64,000 nt of DNA from Rubritalea squalenifaciens DSM 18772 (GTDB taxonomy: Bacteria; Verrucomicrobiota; Verrucomicrobiia; Verrucomicrobiales; Akkermansiaceae): the NCBI RefSeq assembly GCF_900141815.1, contig NZ_FQYR01000003.1, positions 186,001 to 250,000 on the forward strand, given 5' to 3'. The notes beneath the pieces were generated by a model, which had not been told where the DNA came from, ran no database searches, and saw only the letters and a program-made list of their open reading frames with translations. The number at the start of each line of letters is the position of its first letter. Position 1 is the first letter of the stretch. Of this stretch, positions 18,541 to 23,366 are shown piece after piece. The position numbers and the translations under genes were made by a program.

Positions 18541-19200
18541 CTAGCGGCGGTTACTCCGGCCGCCATTTTGGTTGCCTCCACTGATTCTACTTGGATCAGG
18601 GCGAGGAGGAGCCCAGAAGGTGGCGCTTAGTGGAGCCGTAGTATCGTTGCCGTCTACGTCATTGTTGAGGCGTACAATCGTAGGGCGGCCTGTTTGCCAT
18701 TCGTTGACCCAATCTTGTTCGGTGGGGGAGTAGACTTGCCAATAAAGCTCCCCGAGCGTGTTGATGAGCTCATGGCTGCTGAAGGTGACGTCGTCTGAGT
18801 CAGAGCTTGCTGGAGCTGTCTCGAAATGGGCAATCAGGCGTGAAGTGTTGTCTGAGTTGTTGACCACTTCCAGTCTGAGCAAGGCTGCTTTCTGTTCTCT
18901 ACCTAGGGCGGTGAAGTAGACACCTGGATTTTCTATGTAGAGTTCTAGATTTCCGTCCTCAGACTCCTGTAGGGCAAACTGAGCGTCCGAGGGGAGATTC
19001 ATGAAGAGCTTCTCAATGAAGCTGGTGGCTGCCTCCTTGTGTCTGGCCTCTTTCTGCGTGATGGAAATAGCCTCACTGAGGCCCATGCAGGTGTTGATAA
19101 TCATGAAGATGATCCCAATCAGAACAGATGCGATTGCAAGTGAGAGCAGAGTCTCAAAAAGGGTGAAACCGCGTGATCTGTTATGGTGAAGAATAATCAA
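18541..19200 (-). CDS. gspJ: GspJ-like minor pseudopilin
   Basis: 219 residues from a TTG start at 19200-19198; no ATG precedes the prepilin motif. SRGFTLFETLLSLAIASVLIG has the cleavage Gly and +5 Glu. The soluble domain ends in a Gly/Asn/Arg-rich tail. Length and last position in a G-H-I-J array match GspJ, a pseudopilus tip subunit acting with GspI and GspK. It lies 9 bases after the gspI-like stop and in the same reading frame. After its TAG the same frame stays open for another 46 codons. Confidence 0.8.
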   Translation of the reverse strand: MIILHHNRSRGFTLFETLLSLAIASVLIGIIFMIINTCMGLSEAISITQKEARHKEAATSFIEKLFMNLPSDAQFALQESEDGNLELYIENPGVYFTALGREQKAALLRLEVVNNSDNTSRLIAHFETAPASSDSDDVTFSSHELINTLGELYWQVYSPTEQDWVNEWQTGRPTIVRLNNDVDGNDTTAPLSATFWAPPRPDPSRISGGNQNGGRSNRR

Positions 19201-19209
19201 AATCTGCTG

Positions 19210-19623
19210 CTACTGGGTAAGAGGGTAATAATGAATGGTCTCAAGCTCGTTTGTGGTTTGCTCACTACTAAGGGAGTCTTCCAGCGTTATTCTGATTTTG
19301 TAGAGACGGGGAAGAATGTGCTCATCAGCATCGGTTGCTTCAAATTCAGTGACTTGAATGCGAGCTCTGGTGTGATCGTTAATTTCAACTACCTCATCTC
19401 GTACGAACTCGCTTTCAGGGACTGGTGTGGTGAGAGTCTGAGTCATTAGGTTACGCAGTGTCCTTGTAGAATCCAGTTCTTGAGTCATTGTCTGGGACAG
19501 CTCTGCAGTCCTGTTGAGTGCAATGACGATACTGGTGACCGCAATCGAGAAAATGGCAAATGCGAGAAGCACTTCCATGAGCATGAAGCCTGCGGGTTGC
19601 GTCCTATTGATTTGCTTCTTCAT
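19210..19623 (-). CDS. gspI: GspI-like minor pseudopilin
   Basis: 137 residues from ATG 19623; a TTG lies one codon upstream. The N-terminus PAGFMLMEVLLAFAIFSIAVTS is a prepilin sequence with +5 Glu, followed by a small soluble domain of about 100 residues, the usual GspI size. It overlaps the end of the upstream gspH-like gene by 20 bases, implying translational coupling in the G-H-I-J operon. GspI nucleates the pseudopilus tip with J and K. Confidence 0.8.
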   Translation of the reverse strand: MKKQINRTQPAGFMLMEVLLAFAIFSIAVTSIVIALNRTAELSQTMTQELDSTRTLRNLMTQTLTTPVPESEFVRDEVVEINDHTRARIQVTEFEATDADEHILPRLYKIRITLEDSLSSEQTTNELETIHYYPLTQ

Positions 19624-20146
19624 CAAGATCGATAAAATTGCCAGTTATGGGGTTCACGGTCATTTCAAATGAGGATCCGCCATCTTCTAAACGAAACGAA
19701 AAAACTTCACAAATGCCAGATCGTGCAAAAACCCAGATGACAGGGTCCTCGCGTTCAGTCATGGTTACCCATTCTCCATTTTCGCGTTTACAGGAGAGAA
19801 TGGTGCCTTCGGGAATGTCCACGAGAGCAATGTCTGAGCTGGGCTGAATGCGAGACAGGTCCGCGGTCTGATCAATCAATTCAGTGACCCAAATGGCATC
19901 ATGCCTGATGATGGCATAGTGTGGACGCCCGAGAGTAGACGAACGCCTCAGTGTGGAGGTAGCCGTGGCTTCAATTGCCCCCTGAGTCTCAATGATCTCA
20001 TCGGAGGTATTCGCCGAGAATGCAAAAAAAGCGGAACCCATAAGCACCGAGATAAGAGCCAAGGTGATAATGAGTTCCAGTAAGGTGAAGCCTGAATGGG
20101 CTTTTTTGATAGGGAGGCGATTAGTCCTCAGAGCTGATGTCATCAT
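19604..20146 (-). CDS. gspH: GspH-like minor pseudopilin
   Basis: 180 residues from ATG 20146, chosen because AAGGAAGG precedes it at 5 bases; an alternative ATG at 20173 adds nine residues. The motif HSGFTLLELIITLALISVLMG is a prepilin cleavage site and helix. The globular part (about 120 residues) ends in VNPITGNFIDLD, like the GspH C-terminal strand. It overlaps the gspG stop by 26 bases. The order G-H-I-J matches classical type II secretion operons, supporting the assignment. Confidence 0.8.
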   Translation of the reverse strand: MMTSALRTNRLPIKKAHSGFTLLELIITLALISVLMGSAFFAFSANTSDEIIETQGAIEATATSTLRRSSTLGRPHYAIIRHDAIWVTELIDQTADLSRIQPSSDIALVDIPEGTILSCKRENGEWVTMTEREDPVIWVFARSGICEVFSFRLEDGGSSFEMTVNPITGNFIDLDEEANQ

Positions 20147-20570
20147 CTGTGCCTTCCTTGCCGTCTTGGCCAACGCTGATTAGTTCGTAAGAATTAGGGC
20201 CGCCAGCTCCAGGCATTTTGTAGATGTATGGGTTCTTCCAAGGGTCAAGGGGAACCTCCTTGAGCATGCCCTCATTTGGATAGCGTTTTGGGACTGGAGG
20301 CTTGGTTGGCTTGTTCACCAGAGCCTCGAGGCCCTGATCTGTAGTCGGGTAGCGCCCGGAGAGAGTCTTGTATTGGGTAAGTGCCGCACCGATAGCTTTG
20401 ATGTCATTGTCGGCCTGTTGGATTTTAGCACTTTCGTCGAAGCCCTTCATGAGTCCAATGACACCGCCGGCCAAAACGGCAATGATGGCCATGACCATGA
20501 CCATTTCCATGAGAGTGAAGCCGCGGGAGAGATTCTGAGGTTTTGTAAGGAGTGGTGAGTTTTTTCTCAT
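20121..20570 (-). CDS. gspG: GspG major pseudopilin
   Basis: 149 residues. The leader ends in SRG, followed by FTLMEMVMVMAIIAVLAGGV with +5 Glu. The soluble domain is the canonical GspG: IGAALTQYKTLSGRYPTTDQGLEAL, VPLDPWKNPYIYKMPG, and an aspartate-rich calcium loop near the C-terminus (GQDGKEGTDDD). It is the main subunit of the pseudopilus piston and heads the H-I-J operon. It starts divergently from infA with about 250 bases between them. It is closer to textbook GspG than the pseudopilin at 7638-8111. Confidence 0.94.
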   Translation of the reverse strand: MRKNSPLLTKPQNLSRGFTLMEMVMVMAIIAVLAGGVIGLMKGFDESAKIQQADNDIKAIGAALTQYKTLSGRYPTTDQGLEALVNKPTKPPVPKRYPNEGMLKEVPLDPWKNPYIYKMPGAGGPNSYELISVGQDGKEGTDDDISSED

Positions 20571-20683
20571 AGGTATGAATTAATCGATTGTGGAACGTAT
20601 TGTCAAACGTCTGATGACGTATGGCGCACACGGGGTGGGTAGGCCAACTCGCGTATCTATTAAACGTCGCAGAGGGGGGATAG

Positions 20684-20712
20684 TTGCGCAAAGATTTTTC
20701 CTAGTTTATACT
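20684..20712 (+). promoter_or_regulatory. infA: Candidate sigma70 promoter for infA
   Basis: TTGCGC (20684-20689) and TATACT (20707-20712) are exactly 17 bases apart, in the region between divergent gspG and infA. The spacing and -10 are good. Transcription would begin about 100 bases before the infA ribosome-binding site. Confidence 0.5.
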
Positions 20713-20826
20713 AATAATTTCCCAAATAAGTATTGCGAATTACGGGGAAATAAAGAAGATGCGCGGCCAGCACCTTATCCTTAAGGATGTAGTGCGGATT
20801 CAACGAACCAACAAAGGAGAATAGTT

Positions 20827-21147
20827 ATCGCAGGAAAACCAAGAAAAGGGGGCGGAGGACGCCCAGGAGGACGCGGCGGCCGTGGTGGCCGTGGTGCAGG
20901 ACGTCGTTTCAAGAAGAAGGAAGACGACGGACGCGAGGACAAATCTGTGGAGATCGAAGGTACGATCAAAACAGTACTTGCAGGTACTATGTTCAAGGTA
21001 GAGCTTGCATCTGGGCACGAGGTTCTTGCCCACATTTCTGGTAAAATGCGTAAGCGTTTCATCCGTTTGGTTGTCGGTGACCGCGTGAAGATGGAGATGT
21101 CTCCATACGATACCTCTAAGGCTCGTATCACTTACCGTATCGGGTAA
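20827..21147 (+). CDS. infA: Translation initiation factor IF-1 with RG-rich N-terminal extension; start uncertain (non-ATG 20827 or GTG 20947)
   Basis: The S1/OB-fold core is clear: [20 protein letters not shown], then [17 protein letters not shown] and [16 protein letters not shown]-1 binds the 30S A site during initiation. A GTG at 20947 (GAGGA seven bases upstream) gives 66 residues but cuts off EDKS, which matches the KEDN-like start of ordinary IF-1. The same frame is open upstream and encodes a Gly/Arg-rich stretch ([19 protein letters not shown]). AAAGGAG at 20813-20819 is spaced seven bases from ATC 20827. No ATG, GTG or TTG lies between the upstream stop at 20782 and 20947. I give the long form, as inference; the core is certain. 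Confidence 0.85.
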
Positions 21148-21152
21148 TTTTT

Positions 21153-21503
21153 ATGATTCGCATCTACGGATATCAAGGTTGCGGAACTTGTCGTAAGGCC
21201 TACAAGTGGCTTGAAGAGCAAGGTCTTGAGTTCGAAAAAGTTGCTATTCGGGAAACTCCTCCGAGCCGTGAGGAGTTCGCTATGGCGCTATCCAAGTATG
21301 AGAGTATTCGCAAGCTCTTCAATACATCCGGCATGGACTATCGTTCCATGGGGCTCAAGGATAGTTTGCCAGGTATGAGTGACGAGGACGCGCTTGATTT
21401 GCTGGGTTCTAACGGGAATCTCGTGAAGAGGCCGTTTGTTATCTCAGGAAGTACGGCTTTAGTCGGTTTCAATGAGGGGGATTGGTCCTCGGCTCTGCTT
21501 TAA
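21153..21503 (+). CDS. ArsC/Spx-family thioredoxin-fold protein
   Basis: 116 residues starting 5 bases after infA. It has the family N-terminus IRIYGYQGCGTCRKAYKWLEEQ, with a CGTC pair (Cys10, Cys13), and the C-terminal LVKRPFVISGSTALVGF resembling the ArsC/YffB RP loop. Members include arsenate reductase, YffB and Spx. With a CxxC and only about 115 residues it is nearer YffB/Spx than classical ArsC. Redox substrate unknown. Probably cotranscribed with infA. Confidence 0.85.
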   Translation: MIRIYGYQGCGTCRKAYKWLEEQGLEFEKVAIRETPPSREEFAMALSKYESIRKLFNTSGMDYRSMGLKDSLPGMSDEDALDLLGSNGNLVKRPFVISGSTALVGFNEGDWSSALL

Positions 21504-21545
21504 GGGCAGAAAACTGGTGCACGGGTCGTTTTGATCTGGTAGAAC

Positions 21546-23366
21546 ATGGCGATGTTTGAAACTTGGCAGCAAATCTTTTTGGCCGTTCTAACGGTTCTTG
21601 TGTTTGGTGCCTTTGTGAAAGAATGGCTCTCGGCGGAGCTTGTAGCTCTAGTGGCCTTAGTTGCCTGTGTTTTTGCGGGTGTTCTCAGCGTGAAGCCGGG
21701 TGAGACCAATAACGCGCTGCTGGTATTTGCACATCCAGCCCCCATTACGGTAGCGTGCATGTTTATTCTCAGTGCTGCCTTGGAGAGGACTGGAGTGATT
21801 GAGTCTCTGGGGGTGTGGTTTGAAAAGGTGGCGGGTTCTAGCCCAATGCGCATGCTGGTCATGCTGATGCTGATTGTGGTTGGTCTATCCGGATTCGTGA
21901 ATAACACTCCGGTGGTGGTGGTTTTCATGCCAATCATCATGGGGATTTGCCGGCGCAAGAATTATAAGGCCTCGAGGTTCCTGATTCCCTTGTCCTATGC
22001 GGCGGTGGCTGGTGGAACGATGACGATTATTGGTACCTCAACCAATTTGGTGGCTGCTGGAATAGCCAGTAAGTCCATGACCCCATTTACCATGTTTGAA
22101 ATCACCCCGATGGGCTTGATTTTTGCAGGGATTACGATGGTGTACATGCTGACTCTTGGCCGTAAGCTGTTGCCGGACAGGGTGACTCTGGCTGCACTGA
22201 TCGATAGTGATACTGGTAGAGAGTTCATCACGCATGCATTTGTTAAAGAAGGCTCACCACTTGCTGGTAAGTTGTTTCCAGATACGGAAATCTCGAAGCT
22301 GAAGAAGGCCAGGGTGTTGGAGGTGGTCCGTGATGGAGAGCGTCTGCGATGCCCTCTGCCTGAAGTGAAGTTTGAAGTAGGTGATGAGATTATCTTCAAG
22401 GGTGTCATTGAGGGCTTGATGGGGATCTCTGATACCGAAGGGATTGATATCCGGGGGAACGAGAAGTTTGGTCTGGGTGATATCCGTACGGAGTCAGCTG
22501 TATTGATGGAAGGTATCCTGGGGCCGGAGTCTTCTCTGGCTGGAAAGAATCTCAAGGAGTTGAATTTTCGTCAGCGATTTGGGGTGATCATCCTGGCGGT
22601 TCACAGACGTGGGCGAAACCTGAGGGAGAAGTTTGAGGATGAGCGTCTTGCCTTTGGTGATACCTTACTAGTTCAAGGTCCTAGGGAGAGAATGCGTCGT
22701 CTGTTCCAGCAAAAGGATTTCATTAACTTGAGTGAGCCAAAGCATCAGGTTCTGCGGACTCGGAAAGCTCCAATCGTATTGGCTGCATTAGGTTTGTTTG
22801 TGATCATGGGGGCTCTTGGGGGGAATTTTGGAATTCCTCAGTTGCCAACGGTTCAGTTGGCCTTGGCTAGTGCCTTGCTTGTTTTGGTAACCCGCTGTCT
22901 GGATCCTCATGAGGCGTTCCAGTCTATCGAGTGGAAAGTCATCTTCATGATTTGTGGTATGCTGGGGCTGGGAATGGCGATGGACCAGAGTGGCTTGGCT
23001 GCAAATATCGCGAAGTGCACAGTTGGGGTGATCGGACATGATAATCCTTACCTCATGCTCTCGGTCTTTTATCTTCTCTCGGCGATTTTGACCGAACTGA
23101 TTTCCAATAATGCGGTAGCAGCTCTGCTTACGCCCCTGGGGATGTATGTGGCCTCTCAGATGGGGGTGGATGCCCGGCCATTTGTTGTAGCAGTCATGTT
23201 TGGTGCCTCTGCCAGTTTCTCAACGCCGATTGGTTACCAGACTAATACTTTTGTTTATGGTGCAGGTGGTTACAAGTTTGGTGATTTCTTCCGCGTAGGC
23301 TTCCCTCTTGCGGTGATTTTGTGGCTGACAGCTAGTTTGGTCATCCCGATTCTTTGGCCGTTTTAA
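21546..23366 (+). CDS. SLC13/DASS-type permease with two RCK_C domains
   Basis: 606 residues. N-terminal membrane segments (about 1-205) include NTPVVVVFMPIIMGICRR and GTMTIIGTSTNLVAAGI, the SNT-type motif of sodium-coupled anion carriers. Residues about 215-390 are two RCK_C (TrkA-C) domains (EGSPLAGKLFPDTEISKLKKA; LGPESSLAGKNLKELNFRQ). Membrane segments resume at about 405, with a second signature around NNAVAALLTPLGMYVASQ. This layout is common in putative sulfate, phosphate or dicarboxylate transporters. The substrate is not determinable. Confidence 0.88.
   Translation: MAMFETWQQIFLAVLTVLVFGAFVKEWLSAELVALVALVACVFAGVLSVKPGETNNALLVFAHPAPITVACMFILSAALERTGVIESLGVWFEKVAGSSPMRMLVMLMLIVVGLSGFVNNTPVVVVFMPIIMGICRRKNYKASRFLIPLSYAAVAGGTMTIIGTSTNLVAAGIASKSMTPFTMFEITPMGLIFAGITMVYMLTLGRKLLPDRVTLAALIDSDTGREFITHAFVKEGSPLAGKLFPDTEISKLKKARVLEVVRDGERLRCPLPEVKFEVGDEIIFKGVIEGLMGISDTEGIDIRGNEKFGLGDIRTESAVLMEGILGPESSLAGKNLKELNFRQRFGVIILAVHRRGRNLREKFEDERLAFGDTLLVQGPRERMRRLFQQKDFINLSEPKHQVLRTRKAPIVLAALGLFVIMGALGGNFGIPQLPTVQLALASALLVLVTRCLDPHEAFQSIEWKVIFMICGMLGLGMAMDQSGLAANIAKCTVGVIGHDNPYLMLSVFYLLSAILTELISNNAVAALLTPLGMYVASQMGVDARPFVVAVMFGASASFSTPIGYQTNTFVYGAGGYKFGDFFRVGFPLAVILWLTASLVIPILWPF

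Follow-up and report, generated by a model that had tools for sequence, protein, structure and literature searches.

The locus raises the question of where translation of a bacterial infA gene begins. Within the window (the whole stretch of DNA analysed, 64,000 nucleotides), a forward-strand frame is closed upstream only by a TAA at 20782–20784 and runs open through ATC 20827 and GTG 20947 to its stop codon at 21145–21147, with ATG, GTG and TTG all absent from it between that TAA and GTG 20947. The Shine-Dalgarno (SD) word AAAGGAG at 20813–20819 lies 7 nt before ATC 20827–20829, the proposed start, which would be read as fMet. An earlier note on this DNA had claimed both the open frame and the SD spacing, and both were confirmed. 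On the best reading of the comparisons presented here, infA would be a second initiation-factor gene with the AUH start (AUU, AUC or AUA) known from infC.

The gene is infA, coding bacterial IF-1. Its core (residues 38–106 with the stop codon, 20938–21147, forward strand) matches the IF-1 model TIGR00008 over residues 38–104 with 90.9 bits (cut-off 61.15) and PF01176 with 79.1 bits (cut-off 30.2), while 12 solved IF-1 chains of 71–87 amino acids align from residue 36 on. Translation from AUC 20827 would give an IF-1 of 106 residues whose first 37 or so, rich in Gly, Arg and Lys, form a basic tail ahead of this core (the extension, residues 2–37, 20830–20937).

The codon aligned with ATC 20827 among relatives

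A first search recovered infA from 56 of 58 genomes, and within the family of the window the gene is present in 184 of 195 genomes, the other 11 giving no infA match. Start codons were read in one infA gene per genome for 174 genomes of the order, 154 of them among the 184 family genomes with a match, and 173 genes were counted; the excluded gene (L213) contains unreadable letters and shows ATC GCG. The AUH codon was picked by context patterns within the infA frame and the 82 ATG rows were assigned collectively by rule, which divided the 173 genes into 90 of AUH type, 82 of ATG type and one of neither, counts that come from mutually related genomes and stand without P values. Because AUH was sought in the infA frame only, its position in frame is partly by construction, while the codon test of the extension is unaffected. 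AT[ACT] aligned with the ATC of the window in 90/173 genes, as ATC in 75, ATT in 8 and ATA in 7. One gene (L212) was classed as ATG-type, its candidate AUH start falling in seemingly non-coding upstream DNA. The gene of neither type (L172, genome G147) has no AUH start in context and no ATG before the core, and its contig is possibly chimeric.

AUH-type infA is distributed over 13 genera of the window's family and occurs as well in a second family, in three genomes from two genera. Among the bearers is Akkermansia (genus g3; L036, isolate Lapin-015), where the gene begins AAGGAG-AATCCT-ATC AGC CCG; a 400-base stretch of another genome of that genus (L215, G103) is letter-identical in Akkermansia muciniphila L036. 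ATG-type genes are found in genera g7, g10 and g13, much of g3 and families f2–f5, and on this distribution the AUH codon of infA is dispensable in evolution. A single genus can even mix the types at the aligned place, with ATT CCC AGT in L233 versus ATG CCT AGC in L234. When the two labels were mapped on an IF-2 tree of 30 rows, the AUH label needed at least two changes and the second AUH family grouped with ATG families, a pattern for which two gains, or one gain with losses, are both possible histories. Across the rest of the phylum 60 regions were fetched, of which 55 were readable; AUH-only infA was not found there, all 55 having ATG, GTG or TTG no more than 25 codons ahead of the core, counted as available codons and not as proven starts.

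Thirty of the 90 AUH-type genes lack ATG, GTG and TTG altogether from the in-frame stop as far as the IF-1 core. An in-frame stop ends at most 6 nt upstream of the AUH codon in 22, the distance being 3 nt in 20 of them and 6 nt in the other two. Judged by this comparison, the kept AUH codon is likely to be the start of infA, the case being strong but comparative in kind.

infC and a candidate check by IF-3

In infC, AUU, AUC and AUA start codons serve autogenous control, the textbook case of a factor policed by its own product, and IF-1 is a helper of IF-3. The infC (IF-3) start from this set and its autogenous control were reportedly described by Butler et al. in 1987 (as referenced in PMC9845219).

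The infC gene of the window's own genome (L128, contig C3) reads TAGGAGGAT-AAAGCC-ATA GCA and has, besides, an ATG just two codons short of its conserved core. Among 29 readable infC loci of 30 fetched, 23, own genome included, have an AUH codon 12–22 codons before the core with Ala or Ser encoded next, and four of these 23 genes are without any standard start. ATG two codons before the core occurs in 17/29, again including the own genome, and for this reason an AUH start of infC is likely, rather than proved, in the relatives and less sure in the own genome. Between the AUH codon and the core, 33 of 53 differences fall on third positions and 20 on first plus second positions (six overlapping pairs). 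The parallel with infC that had been drawn for this locus at the outset is strengthened by the ATA GCA placed after TAGGAGGAT, but is imperfect, given the ATG so close to the infC core. By comparison, infB of the own genome has an ATG start, and ATG comes first among the standard codons of the infB frame in 24 of 29 relatives and is among those listed in 28. The wording of the two genes is also alike, ATA GCA AAA CCA of infC resembling the first infA codons, ATC GCA GGA AAA CCA.

The favoured reading, to which a probability of about 0.57 is given, is that infA starts at AUC 20827, a codon disfavoured by IF-3 as in infC, and that IF-3 limits IF-1 synthesis in this way; the start is argued from compared sequences and the feedback from analogy. 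IF3 is described as excluding weak third-base pairs (PMC10158994), and AUU, AUC and AUA would be excluded because their third pairs are weak. AUC belongs to this set, the one used by infC for self-control. Were infA under the same check as infC, IF-3, with IF-1 helping, would therefore hold down both factors: initiation on infA and infC would fall when IF-3 is abundant, and both would rise when it is scarce, keeping two fidelity factors in step.

A plausible but clearly less probable account keeps AUH as the true start and makes of it a fixed brake on IF-1 synthesis, without IF-3/IF-1 feedback. It fits the retention of the codon in 90 genomes, as well as results from S. aureus, where AUA and AUU starts cut yield by themselves; in that species the AUA start of infC was detected by Ribo-Ret and in poor medium three other AUA/AUU starts reached about 10% of the expression obtained with AUG (PMC13009471). 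Feedback, on the other hand, is favoured by the identity of the AUH set with that of infC in a gene encoding the partner of IF-3, which is an argument from fitness for purpose.

For the reading with IF-3 feedback, infC is the closest known system. Both are initiation-factor genes, and infA has a kept AUH start with an SD upstream in the window, while the ATA GCA of the own infC is similarly placed; the product of infA, however, is IF-1, so that any IF-3 control would act across genes. Chloroplast infA, with a UUG start (Hirose et al., 1999, as cited in PMC9845219), is the same gene with its expression lowered by a weak start codon; UUG, however, counts among the standard alternative starts of bacteria and not among the AUH codons, and the part of PMC9845219 available mentions no extension. 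The staphylococcal genes ccpN and cvfC1 share a conserved AUA/AUU start, a strong SD and lower yield (PMC13009471); they are not initiation factors, and the evidence there comes from Ribo-Ret and reporters as against sequence comparison here. ATC and ATT starts are also mentioned for other genes in E. coli N-terminomics (PMC13245402). A search of titles and abstract openings, a weak one with subscription journals thinly covered, found no earlier report of an AUH start in bacterial infA. If the reading is true, the single-gene curiosity of infC becomes a circuit, a device kept in 13 genera of one family and in another family, with Akkermansia among them; the translation machinery would then seem to restrict how much of its own components is made. 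The natural variants (AUC, AUA, AUU and AUG, with and without SD) could serve to test the purpose of start-codon discrimination.

Initiation context and entry from upstream

Throughout the genus of the window (11/11 genomes) AAGGAG stands 5–7 nt before the AUH codon. Over the order, an SD-like word is found in 53 of 90 AUH-type infA genes versus 2 of 82 ATG-type ones, mostly 5–7 nt upstream where present. A strong SD would make the weak AUC usable, with initiation in the cell presumably at a lower yield. An SD-like word is lacking in 37/90 AUH-type genes, and SD is therefore no explanation for initiation in those 37; Akkermansia is described as SD-scarce (PMC10783764). The second contextual feature is T directly 5′ of the codon. 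The window has TT at 20825–20826, and T at position −1 is found in 88 of 90 AUH-type versus 40 of 82 ATG-type genes. It is seldom seen in infC, and this near-constant −1 T sets infA apart from infC, as do the 37 genes without an SD-like word.

The initiator tRNA of the own genome (L421:1501–1577, contig C3) carries the loop CTCATAA, with A37 and A38; pairing of these two bases with U at −1 and −2 is conceivable and would help the AUC. This genome has 41 tRNA matches, 40 of them called by ARAGORN; three have CAT, L421 being the initiator. The three CAT tRNAs were read base by base; a special initiator tRNA with another anticodon may exist in addition, and no tRNA-Ile(GAT) was seen.

The usual initiator tRNA has the anticodon stem GGG/CCC. 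That of L421 is AGG/CCT and departs from the three G-C pairs. A search for the exact GGGCTCATAACCC arm found it in none of the 17 genomes covered, and two pattern searches for the initiator arm recovered no initiator tRNA, while a third, shorter pattern gave a match in 51 of 56 genomes. A 3′ fragment of initiator tRNA (L434, C3:120385–120439) is separated by about 21 kb from the intact copy at C3:99548–99621 and might be the leftover of an integrated element.

Upstream of the SD, a candidate promoter region at 20733–20761 (forward strand; TTGCGA with a weak −10 about 17 nt on), picked by eye with the upstream regions of the genus, would give infA a leader of about 60 nt. TATTTT-like words in the genera that lack an SD raised the idea of a leaderless mRNA beginning at the AUC, which was set aside, since promoter-like blocks are seen by eye about 70–100 nt upstream. 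Folding of the leader at 91 loci gave genus mean z values of −1.3 to 1.2, with nothing beyond shuffles and no common hairpin, and no known RNA family reached its gathering score in window 20000–22000.

A wider proposal is tentative and, taken whole, unlikely. It joins IF-1 and IF-3 of this order in a single feedback loop through start codons, both genes being AUH. In that loop an eIF1A-like basic tail would tune initiation at such codons, and the roughly two-fifths of AUH genes without SD would work from AUC or AUU by relying on the U before the codon and on the initiator tRNA loop. The N-terminal tail of yeast eIF1A is reported to favour poor start codons; eIF1A is homologous to IF-1 and carries, ahead of its fold, an unstructured basic tail (PMC5756025), which the basic tail of the infA product recalls. 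The product of infA differs in being of the bacterial IF-1 family, the eIF-1A model TIGR00523 scoring 26.4 bits against it, below the cut-off of 102.9.

Improbable is the idea that AT[ACT] is an ordinary isoleucine codon, with a near-cognate codon just before it as the true start of the protein. The AUH codons are exactly the isoleucine codons, and a stop 3 nt upstream leaves a single codon for such a start, for example GTT, CTT or ATT. Over the 90 genes the codon 5′ of AUH is GTT in 33, ATT in 24, CCT in 9 and CTT in 8, with others in the remainder, and the exact AUH codon is ambiguous in the 24 because the preceding ATT is itself AT[ACT]. In 25/90, however, the preceding codon is CCT, ACT, CAT, GCT, AAT, GCC or ACC; furthermore, the AUH place holds AT[ACT] in 90/90 (by selection) and ATG in relatives, and the SD spacing, mostly 5–7 nt, suits the AUH codon.

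Still more improbable is an entry from an upstream frame, with ribosomes passing into infA through a frameshift or after stopping and restarting. The stop 3 nt before AUH in 20 genomes could suit a restart, and in 42–43 of the 90 genes a shifted frame offers at least one standard codon from which the path is open. In the window and at 10 other loci, however, no frame has a standard start from which the AUH codon can be reached without a stop, and the short upstream frame that L019 has in frame with infA does not recur in L018, a close relative. For the window this candidate was rejected on that ground.

The extension and the GTG codon

Evolution of the extension was examined by a codon test on 27 hand-chosen within-genus pairs (1139 codons). 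In the infA frame pS is 0.349 and pN 0.050, giving a pN/pS of 0.14, while the same DNA read in the two shifted frames gives 2.24 and 2.25; for the IF-1 core the ratio is 0.03. The 427 differences in the extension comprise 310 at third positions and 117 at first plus second positions. The Gly/Arg-rich extension proposed in the earlier note is therefore real, and the comparison with relatives that it had suggested finds conservation continuing past GTG 20947 as far as the AUH codon. Its further claim, that translation begins at a non-ATG codon upstream of the GTG, is well supported by this protein-like evolution up to the AUH codon and by AT[ACT] in 90 genomes.

The codon at 20947–20949 is poorly kept, being GTG in 14 of the 90 AUH-type genes (mostly GTC, GTT, ATT, GTA or ATC in the others) and in 3 of the 11 genomes of the genus, window included. 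Because the extension is protein-like and GTG is kept in only 14/90, the start of infA is placed upstream of it. A start at GTG 20947, with a 66-residue IF-1 and an untranslated open frame upstream, has GAGGA before it in the window and yields a form that still passes the IF-1 models, but it is very improbable and was rejected as the main start, all the more as residues 38–40, just before the GTG, already match the IF-1 model and the solved chains. In the window this GTG may act as a minor second start. With an AUH start upstream, gene finders confined to ATG, GTG and TTG are bound to put the infA start of these bacteria in the wrong place or to overlook it.

Some observations concern the surroundings of the gene and its relatives within the genome. 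By eye, four ORFs with pseudopilin-like N-termini (GFTLMEM, GFTLLEL) adjoin infA on the minus strand (18541–20570), and infA is followed at 21153–23366 by an ArsC/Spx-like frame and then a large membrane transporter-like frame. A second IF-1-like gene, divergent and with an ATG start, is found on another contig of the own genome (C8, L002:1495–1716); its product of 73 amino acids is 35% identical and scores 38.3 bits with TIGR00008, below the cut-off of 61.15. A weak second IF-1 match was obtained in 20 genomes of the first search, own genome included. Directly downstream of the divergent gene lies selB (L002, 1755 onward; TIGR00475, 272 bits).
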